Of a stretch of DNA of 12,072 bases, positions 2,352 to 11,921 are shown in pieces. Numbering within the stretch: the stretch's first letter is position 1; every line of letters starts with the position of its first letter. A model generated the notes under the pieces. It saw only the letters and a program-made list of their open reading frames with translations, ran no database searches and had not been told where the DNA came from. The stretch covers positions 1 through 12,072 of the forward strand of contig JAAURZ010000020.1 of assembly GCA_012031955.1 (NCBI GenBank), read 5' to 3'. Source of the stretch: Bacteroidia bacterium. GTDB lineage: Bacteria; Bacteroidota; Bacteroidia; Cytophagales; Cyclobacteriaceae. Position numbers and translations under genes: made by a program.

Positions 2352-3211
2352 ATGCCGATGAAAGTCATGCGTTATGTCAATGCGACTCGGGCGCTGTTCA
2401 CACTTGCGCTGGTCGCCTCGTGTAATTTCTTCACACACGCCCAGGAAATCGGACTGCAACTCTACAGTCTCCGGGAACAATTCAAAACAGATGTGCCGGG
2501 CACCTTCGCGCTGATTGAAAGCTGGGGTGTCAGGGAAATTGAAGGAGGCGGTACATTCGGGATGGAACTAGAAGCGTTCAAAAATTACTGGCGTCGCACC
2601 AACTTACCGTGATCAGCGTCGGTGCCGACTTCAATGACCTGGACAAAGATCCGATGACAGTCGTGAAGGAAGCGAAGGACTTAGGTGCCAAGTACGTTGT
2701 TTGTTATTGGATACCCCATGATGGCGACGCGTTCACTTTTGAGAATATGAAAAAAGCAGTAGAGGTGTTCAACAAAGCCGGCAAAGTGCTACTCCGAAAT
2801 GGACTGTCTTTATGCTATCACCCGCACGGTTACGAGTTCAGGCCTTACAACAACGAAACACTTTTTGACTATCTCGTGAAGAGCACCGACGCCAAATGGT
2901 TCAACTTTGAGATGGATGTGTTCTGGATTAAGCATCCGGGTCAAGATCCGGTAGCTTTGCTGAAGAAATACCCGGCACGCTGGAAATTGATGCACCTGAA
3001 AGACCGCAAGCCTGGCACGCCCGGCAACCAGAATGGGCATGCAGACATAGAGAGCAACGTGGTACTTGGTACCGGCGATGTGGGTATTGCGGATATTATG
3101 AAGACGGCCAAAAAGCTCGGCAATGTGGAGCACTTCTTTATTGAAGACGAATCGACGCGGTCGGTGGAGCAGATTCCGCAAAGCTTAACGTTTCTTAAAA
3201 GTAGCCGCTAA
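2352..3211 (+). CDS. exported sugar phosphate isomerase/epimerase-like TIM-barrel protein, one frameshift
   Basis: This belongs to the xylose-isomerase-like / AP-endonuclease-2 TIM-barrel superfamily (sugar isomerases and epimerases). After correction it has about 286 residues. The N-terminus is a signal sequence: basic start, hydrophobic core ALFTLALVAS, and a THA-Q site near residue 30. A VASC lipobox at residues 21-24 is an alternative, so it is periplasmic or lipid-anchored. Candidate metal or acid residues fall in REIEGG, CYHPHGYEF, FEMDVFWI, MHLKD and FFIEDES. The frame breaks in the A5 run at 2580-2584: one more A gives FKKLLASHQLTVISVGADF, joining the two halves. Because it is exported it probably acts on free sugars rather than phosphosugars (inference). 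It precedes the KDO-like cluster by 82 bases, and no functional link is proven. Confidence 0.8.
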
Positions 3212-3293: not shown

Positions 3294-4145
3294 ATGGAAA
3301 AGCAAGTCGTAAGAGTAGGGAATATCAACTGCGGCAGCGAGCAGCTATTCCTGATTTCAGGGCCGTGTGTGATTGAGGATGAGAGCACCATGATGGAGAC
3401 TGCCGAATACCTGAAACGGTTGAGCGAACGTATTCCAACAAACATCATTTTCAAGAGTTCGTTTCAAAAGGACAACCGCAGCAAACTTTCTTATTACCAG
3501 GGCCCGGGCCTCGATGCGGGCATAAAAATTCTGGCGCGTATTAAGGCGGACTATGGATTTCCAATCCTGACCGACATTCACTATCCCGATCAGGCGGACG
3601 CCGTGGCCGATGTAGTCGACGTGATCCAGATACCAGCTTACTTGTGTATGCAAACTTCGCTGCTGGTGGCCGCCGCCCAAACAGGTTGTGCTGTCAATAT
3701 CAAGCACGGGCAATTTCTTTCGCCAGAAAACATGAGTCACCCGGTAAACAAGTGTCTTGACGCCGGCAACAGTAACATCATACTTACGGAACGAGGATAT
3801 ACATTTGGCTACAACGACCTGGTAGTCGATCCGCGAAGCTTTTATCATCTCAACAAACTTGGTTTTCCTGTTGTCTTTGACGTAACACATTCCATCAGAA
3901 AATATGGTATCCCGAGTGCCGATGCTAAAGGCGGCGCACGCGAGTACCTGCAAGTGCTGGCGCGCGCTGGTGTAGCCGCAGGTGTCGATGGTTTGTTTAT
4001 TGAAGCACATCCGCAGCCCGACCGGGCGTTGTGCGATGCCGCGAGCCAGCTTTGCATGTACGAACTGGAAGATTTTATGAAGCCGCTATTGGAACTGCAT
4101 CGCGTGGAGGCGCAGTACCGGCAAAAGGAATTTGCACTGAGTTAA
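3294..4145 (+). CDS. kdsA: 3-deoxy-8-phosphooctulonate synthase (KdsA-like)
   Basis: KdsA condenses phosphoenolpyruvate with D-arabinose 5-phosphate to make KDO-8-phosphate, a precursor of the inner-core sugar of lipopolysaccharide. This is 283 residues, the usual length, and intact. Metal ligands of the metal-dependent class are all present: Cys25 (SGPCVIED), His199 (FDVTHS), Glu237 (LFIEAHP) and Asp248 (LCDAAS). The NRS of KDNRSK, the VNIKHGQF strand and TERGYTFGYNDLVVD are also recognisable. Several normally constant positions differ: the family's RQTDL is MQTSL here (Met119 replaces Arg), FDKANRSS is FQKDNRSK, and CDGP is CDAA. It begins a three-gene cluster, 14 bases before the transaldolase-CBS gene. 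A KdsA paralogue making a related acid sugar is an alternative. Confidence 0.88.
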   Translation: MEKQVVRVGNINCGSEQLFLISGPCVIEDESTMMETAEYLKRLSERIPTNIIFKSSFQKDNRSKLSYYQGPGLDAGIKILARIKADYGFPILTDIHYPDQADAVADVVDVIQIPAYLCMQTSLLVAAAQTGCAVNIKHGQFLSPENMSHPVNKCLDAGNSNIILTERGYTFGYNDLVVDPRSFYHLNKLGFPVVFDVTHSIRKYGIPSADAKGGAREYLQVLARAGVAAGVDGLFIEAHPQPDRALCDAASQLCMYELEDFMKPLLELHRVEAQYRQKEFALS

Positions 4146-4159
4146 ACTTAGCAATAGAA

Positions 4160-5173
4160 ATGGAATTGTATCTGGATTCGGCTGACCTCAAGGAAATAGA
4201 GGAAGCATGCTCGCTCGGTTTTCTCTCCGGGCTTACCACCACCCCAACATTCATGCATCGTGGCGGCGTTACCAACGTCGACGATATGGTGATCAGGCTG
4301 TCGCACATGGTACCGGTTTTGCAAATCGAAGCACTGGGTGAAACCGCCGACGCCATTGTGAAGGAGGCGCATCGCCAACTTGCCTTGGGTCTCGACCCGC
4401 AAAAGACCGTCTTCAAAATTCCGGTTTCGCTCGAAGGCGTAAAAGCGTGCTACCGGCTTCGGCAGGAGGGGCTGCTGGTAAACGTACACCTTGTTTATAC
4501 TTTGCAACAAGCGTACATGGCGATGGCCGCCGGCGCCACCTACGTTTGTCCGCTTGTGGGCAGGCTACAAGATCAGGGTCACGATGCGTTACAACTGGTG
4601 CGGCAGTGTGTGCATGTAGCCGAGCGCTACCACTACGCTACCAAAATCATGTTTTCGTCGGTACGAAATGTGGAGCACGTGCGCAACGCCATGAACATTG
4701 GCGTCCACACGATTACGGTACCCTGGAAGCTCATGAAAGTACTGACCGAGAACAGCTTCACCACTATTGGCACCCAACAGTTTTTTGAACACACACGACT
4801 TCTCACCACCCGGGTGAAGGACGTGATCAAGGCGTACAATCCGGTAGTGGACGCCGGGTCATCGTTGAATGAAGCGCTGGTCAAAATGACGGAGTCCGGA
4901 TTCGGCAGTGTAGTAGTGACCAACGGCAACGGCCATGTACTGGGTGTTTTCACCGACGGCGACCTGCGACGGAAGTTGCAGGAAGAAGGGCGCAACGTGC
5001 TTAACCACAAGATGGGCGACTTCGAATATCGCGAACCGTATAGTATCGATGGCGACTCACTGCTCAACGACGCGCTGCAGCTTTTCAAGACATCCAACGT
5101 CGACAACCTCCTGGTGATGGATGGTGGCCACCCCATCGGCATGCTCGACATTCAAGACGTGCAGCCGTTGTGA
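4160..5173 (+). CDS. transaldolase / fructose-6-phosphate aldolase-like domain fused to KdsD-type CBS pair
   Basis: A 337-residue two-part protein. Residues 1 to about 215 match the small transaldolase / fructose-6-phosphate aldolase family: YLDSA with Asp6, the Schiff-base lysine Lys86 in VFKIPVS, then VNVHLVYTLQQAYMAMAAGA, and PLVGR with Arg135. Substitutions are seen at Thr28 (TTTPT instead of TTNPS) and Leu132 (Tyr or Phe in relatives). Residues from about 228 to the end form two CBS motifs, the first containing GVFTDGDLRR (262-271), a signature of the tail of arabinose-5-phosphate isomerase KdsD/KpsF. The start is the ATG at 4160, giving the normal N-terminal strand. It overlaps the HAD gene by one base. 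I infer that it supplies the sugar phosphate used by the adjacent KdsA-like enzyme, with the CBS pair regulating it. Confidence 0.87.
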   Translation: MELYLDSADLKEIEEACSLGFLSGLTTTPTFMHRGGVTNVDDMVIRLSHMVPVLQIEALGETADAIVKEAHRQLALGLDPQKTVFKIPVSLEGVKACYRLRQEGLLVNVHLVYTLQQAYMAMAAGATYVCPLVGRLQDQGHDALQLVRQCVHVAERYHYATKIMFSSVRNVEHVRNAMNIGVHTITVPWKLMKVLTENSFTTIGTQQFFEHTRLLTTRVKDVIKAYNPVVDAGSSLNEALVKMTESGFGSVVVTNGNGHVLGVFTDGDLRRKLQEEGRNVLNHKMGDFEYREPYSIDGDSLLNDALQLFKTSNVDNLLVMDGGHPIGMLDIQDVQPL

Positions 5174-5880
5174 TGCGTGAATTGCAACTTCATCATTTTA
5201 CTCAACTGGGCGGAAGTTTCGGTGATCTCCAGGAGTCGTTCGTGCAACGCTTGTCTTTAATAAAGGCGTATTTGTTTGATTGGGACGGCGTGTTCAACGA
5301 TGGCCGGAAAGGCCCGCGCTTCGATAGCACGTTTTCTGAACCCGACTCGATGGGTGTGAACCTATTGCGGTTTGGACACTGGCTTCGGAATGGCACTTTG
5401 CCGGCAACTGGTATCTTGACGGGCGAAGACAACCCGGCGGCCGAGTACTTCAGCGAACGCGAACACTTAGACAACCTGTACTATCGGTGCTCGAGTAAAA
5501 AGCTGGCACTTGATCACTTTCTCCAATCGCACGAGCTTGAGTCGGGCGAAGTGGCCTTCGTATACGACGATGTGATTGATCTCGATGTGGCTGAAAAGTG
5601 CGGGCTGCGTTTCCTCGTAAGAAGGAAAGCCAGTCCGGCCTTCCTGGATTTTGTGAAACTGAATTCACTGGCGGACTACATTACCTACAGCGAAGGAGGC
5701 CAGCATGCCGTCAGGGAGATATGCGAGCTCATGCTCACCGCAATGAGCATATACCCGGATGTGATGCATGCGCGGCGGCGTTACAGTGGCGCCTATGAAA
5801 CGTACCTTGCTGCGCGAAACTCCATTGACGTCACCAAGCTGTCGCACGCCAATGCGTCAGCGTCGGCGCTAAAGTTATAG
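5173..5880 (+). CDS. KdsC-like HAD phosphatase
   Basis: A HAD-superfamily phosphatase resembling KdsC, which dephosphorylates KDO-8-phosphate. All four HAD motifs are present: nucleophile Asp36 and Asp38 in FDWDGVFNDG, Thr83 in ILTGED, Lys109/110 in SSKKLALDH, and Asp132, Asp133 and Asp136 in YDDVIDLDV. The KdsC-like end, GGQHAVREICELML, is also present. At about 235 residues it is longer than the usual 170-190, with roughly 28 extra residues before motif I and about 45 after the KdsC-like end. The ATG at 5173 sits in a TGATG overlap with the preceding stop, so translation is probably coupled; a GTG at 5170 is an alternative. The context supports action on the product of the KdsA-like enzyme; the exact substrate is inferred. 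Confidence 0.85.
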   Translation: MRELQLHHFTQLGGSFGDLQESFVQRLSLIKAYLFDWDGVFNDGRKGPRFDSTFSEPDSMGVNLLRFGHWLRNGTLPATGILTGEDNPAAEYFSEREHLDNLYYRCSSKKLALDHFLQSHELESGEVAFVYDDVIDLDVAEKCGLRFLVRRKASPAFLDFVKLNSLADYITYSEGGQHAVREICELMLTAMSIYPDVMHARRRYSGAYETYLAARNSIDVTKLSHANASASALKL

Positions 5881-6311: not shown

Positions 6312-7512
6312 TTAGCGTGTGTTTCGCTTTTCACGGCTGAAATCAAAATAAGTGGTAATCATGTGCGAATCCAAGCCGTCGGACCGCTTGTAATACACAT
6401 AACGGATCTCTATGGCCTTGAAATTTTTTGCTGTGGCGAAAGGGGCGAATCGAAGTGCGACACCTGGTTTGAAGCTTGCGAAAGTTGACAGGTCGTAATC
6501 CGACGTCTGAAATTCACTGTTGGGGTCATGTTCCCCGTAAGGGTTGAAGTAGCGCGTGCCACGCTGCCAGTGTATGCGAGCCAACGGCGTGAGTGTTACA
6601 TCGTGCGACACTTTCACGGCCGCCTCGACATTAAACGTATGCGCTGTGATACCGAAGTCGTCGGCATAGAAGCGATAGCCTGTTCGCAGAACCACAATTG
6701 AACCCACGAACCTGTTAAGCTGAAAGCCTATAGGAACTTTAAACCGATGACCAGGGAGGTTCTCTACGCGCTTCGTATCATCGGTAAAATACACGCGGTG
6801 AAACGGCGTGGACAGCAGCCCGGATTGATAGCTTACAGAAGGTGAAACGCTGATTGATGTGCGCCGGTCAATGACCCACGCATAGCTGAAGTAGAGGTTG
6901 TAGGAGTTGCGACGATAATGATCAAACCACTCTTTGTAACGCAGTTCCGACGGGTAAATGAGTTTCTCCGGTTTACCCGTGTCGAAACGACCCCAGCGCA
7001 AGTCATCGTAAAAGAACTGAAGGCCCAGCAGCCATTCTCGTGTACGTGCACGGTTGGCATGTGCAAAGCTGAGTTCGTTGCCGATGGAAAGATAGTCCGA
7101 TTCAATCGAAAAGCCTGTCTTTCCTCCCACCGAGAAACCCTTGTCCGGAACGAGCCTGTCGTATCCAATACGCATGTGCGTGCGTGCGTCCACGCGCGAT
7201 GCCGACGACATCACAAAGTCGATGTTGTCCGTGGAGGCAGACGTGATTACGTCCACGCCACCGTCGAAAGAAAAAATGATCCACGGAATCTTTCGTCACA
7301 TCATAGTTCAACTGCGTTACATATACCTGAAGGTCCTCGGTGCCTTTGCCTCCTGTCACTGCCGAATGGTTGTTGTCCTGCGTGTAGTACGAAAACAGCA
7401 ATTGGATTTCACTTTGCGAAAGCGTTCTTTTCTTGTAGCTGGTTTCTTTCGGCTGGCTTCGCGCGGCAAGCGAGGCAGCAAGTATCCCGATGATGACGTA
7501 TCGCTTCTTCAC
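6312..7512 (-). CDS. DUF3570 outer-membrane beta-barrel protein, one frameshift
   Basis: After correction this is about 399 residues. It has a signal sequence (MKKRYVIIGILAASLAARSQ) followed by DUF3570 features: LLFSYYTQDNNHSAVTGGKGTE, then GGVDVITSASTDNIDFVMSSAS, then many alternating strands rich in aromatic and polar residues as in an outer-membrane barrel. The last strand, around HMITTYFDFS, carries a short basic tail. The start is a GTG at 7510-7512, five bases after the DUF4266 stop, implying one transcript. The frame breaks at the A6 run 7271-7276 on the plus strand: removing one base gives DHFSFDGGVDV and joins the halves. The family has no firm biochemical function, and its constant partner is the small lipoprotein next door. 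Confidence 0.83.
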
Positions 7513-8947: not shown

Positions 8948-10002
8948 ATGAATAAACTTACGCGGTTCTTCTGGTTATGCTCTGGAGCCAACATCGAGCT
9001 CCTTAAGAAATGTCCAACCGACTCCAGTAAAATATGTTGGCATAGGCGCCACCATTTTTTTTTTACCGGGGTCTTCGCATTCCTGGCGGGTGCTTACGCC
9101 TTCTACACAGTGTTCGACAACGCCTGGATTTCTCTCGCACTGGGGCTCGTATGGGGTCTCATGATCTTCAACCTCGACAGGTATATTGTGTCCAGCATGC
9201 GCAAGGAAGGGACTGGCCAACAGGAGTTCGTAACCGCACTGCCAAGGTTGATACTCGCCGTCCTGATTTCGCTTGTCATCGCCAAACCACTGGAAATGAA
9301 AATTTTCGACAAAGAGATTCAAAGTGAACTTATTATTATGGAGCAGCAGACTTACACAGCCCAGGAGGCTGAGATACGGATGCGCTACGAACCCGAACAG
9401 ACGCAACTGAGACAGGATATTACGGTGCTCAACCAGGAGATCGCCGACAAGACTGCAAAGCGCGACGACCTTCGGCGTCTTGCACAAGAAGAAGCCGACG
9501 GCACCGGCGGTACCAAACGCCGCAACGCGGGTCCGATCTATCAAATAAAAAAAACCGACGCGGAAAGGTTGACGCGGAGCTGACTGAACTGTCGACGCGC
9601 AATGGCCTTCTTATCGCGGAGAAAACAAATCGCATCACGGAGCTTGACTCGACCATCACAGCACAGATAGGCACACTTGCCCGCCAACGCCTCGACGGCC
9701 CCGCCGCAAGAATGGAGGCGCTGGACAGGCTTACGCAGAAAAGCTCGGCAATCAACCTCGCCAACTGGTTCATCCTGCTTCTGTTCATCGCAGTTGAAAC
9801 AGCGCCTGTCTTTGTGAAGCTAATCTCCACAAAGGGTCCGTACGACCACCTGCTCAAGATTGAGGAGCACGGCTTCGAGGGGCAGCGCGTGGAAGCGTTG
9901 GCGCATGTGAATGCTGAAATCAAAAAACGCACCGAACACCTGCCTGAAACAGAATCCAATTTTGTGAAAGAAAGACTCGACCTGGGCTTGCATCAGTCCT
10001 GA
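8948..10002 (+). CDS. DUF4407 membrane protein with coiled coil, one frameshift
   Basis: The protein begins MNKLTRFFWLCSGANIELLKK, the hallmark N-terminus of DUF4407. Hydrophobic helices are seen at about residues 37-56, 60-76 and 98-114. A long charged, heptad-like helical stretch follows (about 130-255, including QTQLRQDITVLNQEIADK), and a last membrane helix (NWFILLLFIAVETAPVFVKL, about 273-292) precedes a cytosolic-looking tail. The frame breaks at the A3 of 9564-9566; one more A gives DAEKVDAELTELSTRNG and a protein of about 351 residues. The function is unknown, and the topology suggests an inner-membrane protein with a coiled-coil domain between helices. It sits between the AlkA-like gene and the Ada-type cluster, but nothing in it suggests a DNA-repair role. 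Confidence 0.82.
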
Positions 10003-10019: not shown

Positions 10020-10065
10020 ATAGAACCGATCATGATCAAGACCTTTGAATCATGATCGGTTCTAT
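10020..10065. repeat. 17-bp perfect inverted repeat upstream of the repair cluster
   Basis: ATAGAACCGATCATGAT at 10020-10036 and its exact reverse complement at 10049-10065 flank a 12-base spacer. Each arm holds the self-complementary ATCATGAT, and the two centres lie 20 bases apart. No T tract follows, so it is not a classical terminator. The spacer contains GACCTTTG (10040-10047), close to the TAnnTTTG box. Confidence 0.8.
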
Positions 10066-10751
10066 TCAAAATTACCATGGCACACCATACACCGGCAGCT
10101 TGACGCGCATGGTTATGCACATATCAAAGGCGTGCTTACTGCCGGAGAGTGCGAAGCATTAACCTCTCTGTACGATATGCCTGCTCATTTCCGCAGTGTG
10201 ATCTCCATGGAACGCTACCGGTTCGGGAAAGGAGAATATAAATACTTCAGCTACGCGCTGCCGCCGCTTGTAAACGAACTGCGCACGTCTTTTTATCCGC
10301 CACTGGCGCCGCTCGCCAACGAATGGATGGAACAGCTAAAACAAAATGTCTCCTACCCCGCTTCGCTCGACACTTTACTGGAGCAATGTCACCGGGCAGG
10401 ACAGCACCGGCCGACGCCGCTCATACTCCGGTACGAACAAGGAGGCTACAACACGCTTCACCAGGATCTTTATGGCGACGTGTACTTCCCGTTCAAGTAG
10501 TGTTGGCATTGTCGCAACCAGAACGTGACTACACCGGCGGCGAACTCGTGTTTGTCGAACAATTGCCACGCGCACAGTCGAAGGCAACAGTGGTATTGCC
10601 CGGTCAGGGTGATGCCATCATCTTCACCACCAACTTCCGGCCGGTAAAAGGCACGCGCGGATACTATCAGTCAAAAATGAAACACGGTGTGAGCATACTT
10701 ACTTCCGGGCGACGCCATGCACTTGGTCTCATCTTCCACGACGCAAGCTAA
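10045..10751 (+). CDS. 2OG-Fe(II) oxygenase family protein, at least one frameshift
   Basis: A 2-oxoglutarate/Fe(II)-dependent dioxygenase of about 235 residues. The iron triad is His139 and Asp141 (LHQDLYGD) and His214 (MKHGVS), with a 2OG-binding Arg in GRRHALGLIFHD. The middle contains MERYRFGKGEYKYFSYALPPL, typical of an uncharacterised bacterial subfamily. The frame breaks at 10492-10493: one more T gives YFPFQVVLALSQPE. The start is uncertain. In the frame as written only a TTG at 10045 follows the stop at 10033-10035. If one A is missing from the A4 run at 10068-10071, an ATG at 10052 gives MIGSIQKLPWHT instead. Four bases separate its stop from the Ada-domain gene, so it is probably part of an alkylation response; the substrate (nucleic acid or protein) is unknown. 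Confidence 0.8.
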
Positions 10752-10755
10752 ACCC

Positions 10756-11007
10756 ATGTGGCTCCACGAGGACTTGCCGGACCGCGAGTTGCAGCGATTG
10801 ATATGCACTGGGCAGATCACCTTTGGGGGAAATCGTAACCTTGGCGTTTATGGCCTGCTGACGTGCATCTCGGGACGCAGGATGAAAAAAGCAAATCGCA
10901 TATTTTTTAGTTCGGCAAGCGAAGCAACTGCTCACGGCTACAGGCCCTGCGCCCATTGCCTGCGTGCACCTTATAGAGCATGGCAAACACAGCAAAAATC
11001 GGGTTGA
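10756..11007 (+). CDS. stand-alone Ada metal-binding domain protein
   Basis: An 83-residue protein starting at the ATG at 10756 (MWLHEDLPDRELQRLI); an earlier in-frame ATG at 10717 lies inside the oxygenase gene. It matches the Ada zinc-binding domain: VYGLLTCISGRRM, ANRIFFSSASEA, then GYRPCAHC. Aligning on NRIFF and RPCxxC, the Cys of LLTC corresponds to E. coli Ada Cys42, and the CxxC pair to Cys69 and Cys72. The position of Cys38, the methyl acceptor, is Gly here, so direct phosphotriester repair is doubtful. A role in DNA binding or sensing beside the AraC-MGMT gene is an inference. It follows the oxygenase by 4 bases and precedes AraC-MGMT by 51. Confidence 0.85.
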   Translation: MWLHEDLPDRELQRLICTGQITFGGNRNLGVYGLLTCISGRRMKKANRIFFSSASEATAHGYRPCAHCLRAPYRAWQTQQKSG

Positions 11008-11058
11008 AAAGACCCGGCTGCGGCGTGAGATTTGGTCAAACAAAAAAATATTAGCTTT

Positions 11059-11921
11059 ATGAACTTGACAGACGAAACAAATAATATTGACTACGCCCGT
11101 ATTGAACAGGCTATTCAATACCTGGAAGAAAACTTTCGGCACCAGCCCGACCTCGACGAAGTGGCAGCGCGCGTGCACCTGAGTCCGTTTCACTTTCAGC
11201 GACTGTTTACGCATTGGGCAGGCATCAGCCCAAAAAATTCCTGCAATTCCTCACTGTAGATTTTCTGAAGCAAAAACTGGCTGAAACCAGAAACCTGATC
11301 GAAGCGGCCGAGTACGCCGGCCTCTCCAGCCAGTCACGCGTTTATGATCTCTTCACCACACTCGAAGCGGTTACACCACAGGAGTACAAGCTCAACGGTG
11401 GCGGTATACGCATCAGTTACGGATTTCATCAAACACCCTTTGGTCAATGTCTAATCGGTGTAACCGAGCGTGGCGTATGTTGGCTCTCGTTCCTGCAGTC
11501 GGACGAAAACCCGCGCACAGCGGTTGAACAAATGAAATCACATTGGCACAATTCCATTTTCTATGAAGACAGTGCGTTAACTAAAAACTTTATTGACGCC
11601 GTGTTCAGCGCTGGCAGCGGAGCACGTCAGAAAAAATTGCACATACTCGTGAAGGGTACCAACTTCCAGGTGAAGGTATGGAACGCCTTGCTGCAGATTC
11701 CGCTCGGTACAGTGGCTACTTATCAGGATGTAGCCCGGCACATTCAGGCACCGCGGGCCTTGCAGGCGGTAGGCTCTGCTGTAGGGGCCAATCACATCGC
11801 GTACCTCATACCCTGCCACCGCGTGATCAGAAAAGACGGCGTGTTGGGCGAGTACCGATGGAGCGCCTCGCGTAAAAAAAGTATAATCGGATGGGAAATG
11901 TCGCACACCAATGGCGAGTGA
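11059..11921 (+). CDS. AraC-type HTH / methylated-DNA-protein-cysteine methyltransferase fusion (Ada without N-domain), one frameshift
   Basis: After correction this is about 287 residues. The N-terminal part (about residues 10-110) is an AraC-type helix-turn-helix domain (LDEVAARVHLSPFHFQRLFTHW, then AAEYAGLSSQSRVYDLF). The C-terminal part is O6-alkylguanine-DNA alkyltransferase: FQVKVWNALLQIPLGTVATY, AVGSAVGANHIAYLIPCHRV with acceptor Cys253, and a conserved GVLGEYRW. Together with the preceding small gene it supplies the parts of E. coli Ada, split over two proteins. The frame breaks at the A6 run 11232-11237; one more A gives ISPKKFLQFLTVDFLKQKL. The start chosen is the ATG at 11059; a TTG at 11032 is possible. 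It probably both repairs DNA and regulates this cluster. Confidence 0.88.

Follow-up and report, generated by a model that had tools for sequence, protein, structure and literature searches.

A transaldolase-CBS fusion protein as the probable arabinose 5-phosphate source of a Kdo pathway variant

In most Gram-negative bacteria the outer membrane contains Kdo as an essential sugar, and to our knowledge every known source of arabinose 5-phosphate (A5P) for Kdo is an SIS isomerase (KdsD, GutQ or KpsF). The locus described here raises the question of whether A5P can also be supplied by an enzyme of another fold. The window (the whole stretch of 12,072 nucleotides of contig JAAURZ010000020.1 from a Bacteroidia bacterium) carries a gene for a protein with a transaldolase-fold half and a CBS pair, here called TalCBS; the features of the locus are listed in Table 1.

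Table 1. Coordinates of the TalCBS locus in the window.
Feature	Position	Strand	Remarks
KdsA (3-deoxy-8-phosphooctulonate synthase), TalCBS-associated clade	3294..4145	+	TIGR01362 325.6 bits (cut-off 314); PF00793
Clade residues of the window KdsA	D60 3471-3473; M119 3648-3650; R202 3897-3899	+	
TalCBS	4160..5173	+	337 aa, ATG at 4160; frame open throughout
TalCBS, transaldolase-fold half	4160..4798	+	residues 1-213; aligned with solved TAL/FSA and 20 ordinary TALs
TalCBS, KdsD-type CBS pair	4799..5161	+	residues 214-334; profile and fold matches to KdsD CBS pairs
TalCBS, residue codons	D6 4175-4177; T28 4241-4243; E57 4328-4330; K86 4415-4417; H110 4487-4489	+	
TalCBS, residue codons	C130 4547-4549; L132 4553-4555; R135 4562-4564; S167 4658-4660; R169 4664-4666	+	
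Divergent KdsC-like HAD phosphatase	5170..5880	+	DWDG 5278-5289; GTG start

Domain architecture and spread of the TalCBS family

The automatic list of open reading frames places the start of TalCBS further 5', at a GTG at 4031. In Pfam, TAL_FSA (PF00923) matched residues 3-201 (120.2 bits against a cut-off of 27), and CBS (PF00571) matched in two stretches (60.6 bits against a cut-off of 24). The best NCBIfam match of the CBS half was KpsF/GutQ TIGR00393 (64.4 bits, residues 214-329); the match covers profile positions 152-267 of 268 only, with no SIS isomerase domain in TalCBS, and it lies under the cut-off of 203.7 because the SIS half is absent. With TIGR00875 (F6P aldolase) TalCBS scored 148.7 bits and stayed below the equivalog cut-off of 245.95. 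When PDB profiles were ranked for the CBS pair, the KdsD CBS pairs 4o9k, 3k2v and 3fna came first, second and fourth (9e6q was third), and the same three KdsD pairs were on top of the fold ranking. The motif GVFTDGDLRR (residues 262-271) is mostly near-invariant across the family alignment. The CBS pair of TalCBS is of the KdsD type. The AlphaFold2 model of TalCBS had a mean pLDDT of 87.9, and its top Foldseek match was the transaldolase 1vpx (TM by target about 0.9). Lys86 aligned with the lysine of solved transaldolases, and a lysine was found at this position in 80 of 81 family rows; an in-frame stop interrupts the remaining row, L064, at codon 3, and this row contributes no residues to the TalCBS counts. 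The Pfam matches, the best match to TIGR00393 and the alignment of Lys86 bear out the original prediction of a Schiff-base transaldolase domain joined to a KdsD/KpsF-type CBS pair.

TalCBS is a genuine protein family. A protein search with TalCBS gave 4,048 matches at E <= 1e-3, plain transaldolases possibly among them, and both TAL_FSA and CBS were present in all of the best 120 of these 4,048. An assembly chimera was ruled out on the strength of these 120 best-listed relatives. Scanning species genomes yielded 106 confirmed matches, from which 80 TalCBS loci were kept. By record title, most of them are from Bacteroidota (Cytophagales, Bacteroidales, Flavobacteriales and others) and mostly from MAGs; seven are from Deltaproteobacteria or Desulfobacterales/-aceae, and SAR324, Chlorobiota and Ignavibacteriales contribute one each. 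Cultured species with TalCBS include Raineya orbicola, Thermonema rossianum, Thermoflexibacter ruber, Runella aurantiaca, Flexithrix dorotheae and Saccharicrinis aurantiacus.

Several other genes of the window are apparently split between frames (465-1633, 2352-3211, 6312-7512, 8948-10002, 10045-10751 and 10717-11921). The HMGL/LeuA-like protein, the DUF4407 protein and the Oxygenase-NA protein each show one Pfam family in two pieces, and the TIM-barrel protein, the DUF3570 protein and the Ada-like protein also look split, a pattern suggestive of indel errors in this contig. No such split affects kdsA, TalCBS or the kdsC-like gene, whose frames are uninterrupted.

Kdo genes near TalCBS, the partner KdsA and near exclusion with KdsD

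The gene had been predicted to lie between a KdsA-like and a KdsC-like gene, and this held: the upstream product passed the TIGR01362 cut-off and the downstream product is KdsC-like with scores under the family cut-offs. The GTG start of the kdsC-like gene overlaps the TalCBS stop by 4 bases. Its product reached 51.9 of 106.95 bits with TIGR01670 and 62.3 of 208 bits with PRK09484, remained under the cut-off of all four NCBIfam models matched, and gave no Pfam match at E <= 0.1; the KdsC-type structures 3mn1 and 7t35 matched it with E about 2e-12. D37, D39, K110, D133, D134 and D137, which we take to be the HAD catalytic residues, were invariant in 58/58 aligned KdsC-like rows. The first motif of the phosphatase is DWDG.

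Neighbourhoods were collected with flanks of up to 10 kb per locus, some contigs being short, and kdsA linkage was counted by tblastn. A same-strand kdsA was found in 50 of the 80 TalCBS loci, a same-strand kdsC-like gene in 59, and both in 43. In 48 loci kdsA lay <= 1 kb upstream of TalCBS (72 loci had >1 kb of upstream room), and in 57 loci the kdsC-like gene lay <= 1 kb downstream (75 with room); kdsA was away from TalCBS in 30/80 loci, some of them short contigs. Within 6 kb of TalCBS the 80 loci contained the kdsB cluster 15 times, the Kdo transferase WaaA 6 times, a KdnA-like gene 10 times and a KdnB-like gene 9 times, each of these clusters being identified through one member. The KdnA-like member matched the 8-amino-Kdo transaminase 5k8b (E 6e-131), and the KdnB-like member matched the Kdo 8-oxidase 5k8c (E 3e-112) and also 3rf7, named alcohol dehydrogenase (E 2e-114). 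In loci L069, L075 and L079, TalCBS, kdsB and the KdnA/KdnB-like genes formed a single run. These kdsB, WaaA and KdnA/KdnB-like neighbours point to Kdo as the product. KdnA- and/or KdnB-like genes were also seen near TalCBS in L004, L043, L044, L054, L076 and L078; such neighbours lie on the opposite strand in some loci, and their hosts are Bacteroidota and, going by record titles, members of other phyla.

Co-occurrence was counted in 45 genomes, which stand behind 45 of the 80 loci. KdsA was present at E <= 1e-40 in 45/45 (over the cut-off in 43/45, single copy in 42/45), and KdsB was over the cut-off in 45/45, the copy of genome G022 having an inner stop. An SIS-type KdsD over the cut-off was found in two of them (G005 and G022) and was missing from 43/45; none was found in G001, the genome of the nearest fetched relative (L001, 73% identity). 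An SIS-only isomerase in TalCBS genomes was considered and rejected, as the listed matches to the SIS part were weak (best 1.3e-6) except in G005 and G022; for comparison, the SIS-only form in G522 scored 3.3e-53. Among 14 control genomes searched at E <= 1e-25, KdsD was recovered from E. coli, Caulobacter, Synechococcus and Bacteroides ihuae, three of them over the cut-off. Another TAL/FSA was found in 33/45 TalCBS genomes. TalCBS was the sole PF00923 protein at E <= 1e-10 in 12/45, for example in those of L043, L049, L051, L057 and L075, and these 12 species may lack an ordinary transaldolase.

The exclusion was also seen in three larger samples. The phylum sample of 296 genomes contained TalCBS in 5, KdsD in 211 (208 over the cut-off) and both in 0. 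The order of Thermonema (212 genomes) had TalCBS in 62, KdsD in 125 (124 over the cut-off), both in 2 (G005 and G390) and neither in 27, and the order of L034 (Desulfobacteraceae, 146 genomes) had TalCBS in 8, KdsD in 121, both in 0 and neither in 17, so that the pattern is repeated in two phyla. The phylum and Thermonema-order samples were requested at 90% completeness, although the returned records bore no completeness figures; the match in G225 (178 bits, limited to the first 219 positions) was left out of the TalCBS count, and the partial matches in G375, G437 and G635 were included. One-sided Fisher tests gave p values of 1.8e-3 (phylum), 7e-29 (Thermonema order) and 2.6e-7 (L034 order) for the exclusion, and 3e-8 within the KdsA genomes of the phylum sample; kinship is uncorrected in all of these values and inflates them, and a few genomes occur in more than one sample.

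The 218 KdsA genomes of the phylum sample divide into 209 with KdsD, 5 with TalCBS and 4 with neither. One of the four, G312, has a KdsD-type CBS end running off the contig end. In G068, G244 and G328 KdsA is present and both KdsD and TalCBS were not found, which may reflect assembly gaps or a third A5P source; absence of KdsD can therefore have other causes too. TalCBS and KdsD were found together in three genomes overall (G005, G390 and G022). In G005 and G390 (the latter containing L006 by coordinates) KdsD shares its stretch with a canonical KdsA and a KdsA of the TalCBS clade lies elsewhere, indicating that two modules coexist there. The occurrence of TalCBS with KdsA and KdsC-like genes and against KdsD was as originally predicted.

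The KdsA proteins that accompany TalCBS form a clade of their own. The KdsA of the window matched A. aeolicus KdsA 1fwn with E 1.9e-73. For the comparison, 48 KdsA from TalCBS loci (48 of the 50 KdsA-bearing loci, matches <200 aa being left out) and 15 from genomes with kdsA elsewhere were taken, 63 in all. D60, M119, R202 and Y204 were found in these 63, in the KdsA of the window and in that of L109, and A60, R119, Q202 and P204 in 23 canonical rows (21 distinct genes, with L090/L129 and L082/L105 as duplicates), which came from KdsD genomes plus an extra copy of G045, a genome without KdsD over the cut-off. The changes A60D, R119M, Q202R and P204Y are exceptionless in the KdsA of TalCBS genomes, and K138H and S247C have few exceptions. 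In the KdsA tree the TalCBS group (65 leaves) was cleanly apart from the canonical group (23 leaves) with a support of 1.0. The clade has K-D-N-R-S and Met119 in place of the canonical K-A-N-R-S/T motif and Arg119, and it retains the K-x-N-R-S core. C25, H199, E237 and D248, presumably the KdsA metal ligands, are also kept (X at 248 in one row), and we assume that Cys25 of the window KdsA marks the metal type.

By our own count on the alignment, positions 60, 119, 202 and 204 correspond to A47, R106, Q188 and P190 of A. aeolicus KdsA and fall in the KANRS motif, the R106 segment and the L7 loop; R106 is assumed here to contact A5P. The available excerpt of PMC6650799 describes loop L7 as important for A5P binding and lists Lys55 and Arg58, which we map to the same motif, among the residues that bind bisphosphate inhibitors. 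Distances among TalCBS and among KdsA proteins were moderately correlated (r 0.57 with 64 genes of each kind, and 0.68 among the 15 unlinked ones). The pairing is kept in the 15 genomes examined in which the two genes are unlinked, so it goes beyond hitch-hiking in a local operon; shared descent alone could nevertheless produce the pairing of the clades.

The co-occurrence with kdsA and kdsB, the exclusion with KdsD and the operons with Kdo genes led us to conclude that TalCBS very probably supplies the A5P for a variant Kdo pathway; judging from sequence, a Schiff-base transaldolase-fold half would there take the place of the SIS half of KdsD, the CBS pair being kept. The co-occurrence and the near exclusion also support the alternative entry into KDO-like sugars proposed in the original prediction.

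Active site and candidate reactions

The active site was compared with that of 20 ordinary transaldolases, from 20 of the 33 TalCBS genomes that own one. K86 is common to 80/80 readable TalCBS rows and 20/20 ordinary TALs, and D6, E57, R135, S167 and R169 are likewise shared. T28, H110 and L132 were found in 80/80 TalCBS rows vs N, T and F in 20/20 ordinary TALs; position 130 is C in 74 and T in 6 of the 80 rows vs S in 20/20, and Y113 (F), Q137 (D) and S166 (A) also separate all 80 from all 20. TalCBS has thus none of the donor-pocket Asn28, the water-binding Thr and the Phe/Tyr132 of transaldolases and FSA. In transaldolase B, the equivalents of Asn28 and Ser130 presumably bind the C1 hydroxyl of dihydroxyacetone and those of Arg135, Ser167 and Arg169 the phosphate; by the conserved and replaced residues, therefore, TalCBS has an altered C1-OH subsite and retains the phosphate site, the pocket geometry being taken from the alignment (the AlphaFold model carries no ligand geometry). 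In FSA, according to the accessible part of PMC13259622, Asp6 and Asn28 touch the donor and determine which donor is chosen, Ala129 belongs to the donor pocket, and the catalytic water is held by Gln59-Thr109-Tyr131. By derivation, A5P is F6P minus C1 and has an identical configuration at its other centres, which makes A5P the natural ligand for the altered pocket. The remodelling fits an aldehyde substrate.

In the proposed mechanism, Lys86 would bind an aldehyde as a Schiff base, with the aldose C1 standing where F6P has its C2, and Arg135, Ser167 and Arg169 would hold the 5-phosphate. The subsite for the donor C1 hydroxymethyl (Asn28 and Ser130 in transaldolases) would be lost because A5P is F6P without C1, and Glu57 and His110 may act as acid/base, replacing the water bound by Glu/Gln-Thr. 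The CBS pair is a proposed feedback sensor, probably throttling TalCBS via a late metabolite. CMP-Kdo is the candidate; we take it to be the ligand in the KdsD CBS structure 4o9k. We found no paper on CMP-Kdo and the CBS pair of the isomerase in the open PMC literature.

The most likely net reaction would be glycolaldehyde + glyceraldehyde 3-phosphate (G3P) to A5P, as FSA can do. We adopted this route as the default, with a little under half of the total probability, because of two precedents: FsaA was used as an A5P aldolase with these two substrates in an engineered E. coli pathway (PMC9947464, accessible part), and wild-type FSA yields an arabino product in a nucleoside cascade (PMC11821518, accessible part). 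Formation of A5P from ribulose 5-phosphate by TalCBS was rejected by our own reasoning, as a ketone Schiff base gives no aldose. Free glycolaldehyde is scarce in known metabolism, and its unexplained supply is therefore the weak point of the glycolaldehyde + G3P route.

Glycolaldehyde would not be needed in free form if TalCBS made A5P by C2 epimerisation of ribose 5-phosphate (R5P), our second choice, in which the aldehyde forms the same Lys86 Schiff base and Glu57 and His110 shuttle the C2 proton; in a variant, glycolaldehyde would be cleaved off and re-added without release. A common metabolite would suffice, KdsD would be replaced one for one, and epimerisation would account both for the invariant His110, which is new in TalCBS, and for the loss of the C1-OH subsite. 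However, FSA-type enzymes are strict about the enamine face, and we know of no precedent for C2 epimerisation in the transaldolase fold; we regard this reaction as doubtful. A related and tentative idea, which we also consider somewhat unlikely, is that TalCBS and the divergent KdsA are an obligate pair with new chemistry, either R5P epimerisation or direct handover of A5P (or an enzyme-held equivalent) to KdsA; this would explain why the D60/M119/R202 clade of KdsA travels with TalCBS even when unlinked. Cleavage of an octulose 8-phosphate is an improbable route to A5P: the stereochemistry fits, since cutting ido-octulose 8-phosphate between C3 and C4 would, by derivation, give D-arabinose 5-phosphate, and Glu57 is transaldolase-like, but Asn28 and Ser130, the binders of the dihydroxyacetone C1-OH in transaldolase, are replaced in 80/80 readable rows. 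According to the available text of PMC5854111, transketolase makes that octulose phosphate out of F6P plus G6P, and a proposed L-type pentose pathway has both ido-octulose phosphates and A5P among its intermediates.

Two further readings would take TalCBS out of Kdo synthesis altogether. It might be an ordinary pentose-phosphate transaldolase, fused to CBS and placed in a Kdo operon by chance or co-regulation, as the fold and the lysine match, and in the 12 genomes with no other PF00923 protein the gene count leaves room for such a role. Yet 33/45 genomes own another TAL/FSA, the active site is changed in 80/80 readable rows, and the absence of KdsD from genomes with KdsA and KdsB would be left unaccounted for, which makes an ordinary role extremely unlikely. 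The divergent KdsA, separate also when unlinked and with changed residues, and the KdsC below the family cut-offs could mean a different phosphosugar, so that the trio would make a non-Kdo sugar acid from another aldose phosphate. This is very unlikely as well: the Kdo8P synthase cut-off is passed by the KdsA of the window and by the best KdsA of 43/45 genomes, the C25, H199, E237 and D248 residues and the K-x-N-R-S core are kept, 42/45 genomes have one KdsA and 45/45 have KdsB over the cut-off, and homologues of KdnA/KdnB, which act on Kdo, adjoin TalCBS in some loci.

If TalCBS is the A5P source, an essential pathway of the cell envelope would have two natural entries, and the FSA-type A5P synthesis of engineered pathways would have a counterpart in nature. 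A non-homologous exchange across whole lineages would account for the missing KdsD gene, a regulatory CBS module would have been kept while its catalytic partner was swapped, and there would be two Kdo enzyme sets, differently hit by KdsD or KdsA inhibitors.

Comparison with known systems

We found no description of a transaldolase-CBS fusion or of a KdsD-less Kdo pathway in the open PMC literature. The SIS-CBS proteins KdsD/KpsF/GutQ hold, by exclusion, the same place in the pathway as TalCBS and have the same CBS type (4o9k, 3k2v, 3fna); they differ in the catalytic half, SIS isomerase vs transaldolase-fold Schiff-base domain, and probably in substrate. The fold, the lysine, Asp6 and the phosphate-side Arg are common to TalCBS and E. 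coli FsaA, which can form A5P from glycolaldehyde and G3P (PMC9947464, accessible part). Unlike FsaA, TalCBS is fused to CBS and adjoins Kdo genes, and by our alignment it differs at Glu57/Gln59, Thr28/Asn28, His110/Thr109, Cys130/Ala129 and Leu132/Tyr131 (FSA residues from the accessible part of PMC13259622). The small TalC-type transaldolases (1vpx of T. maritima, 3s0c of T. acidophilum) are nearest to TalCBS in the PDB by fold and sequence, at about 31% identity, and share Glu57; in TalCBS, in contrast, the donor-hydroxymethyl subsite and the catalytic Thr/Phe are replaced and CBS is fused. LmbR of lincomycin biosynthesis is likewise a recruited transaldolase and makes an octulose phosphate (PMC5854111, available text); unlike TalCBS, it uses F6P or S7P + R5P and stands outside Kdo synthesis. 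The 8-amino-Kdo enzymes KdnA and KdnB (5k8b, 5k8c), whose homologues adjoin TalCBS in 10 (KdnA) and 9 (KdnB) loci out of 80, act downstream, on Kdo.
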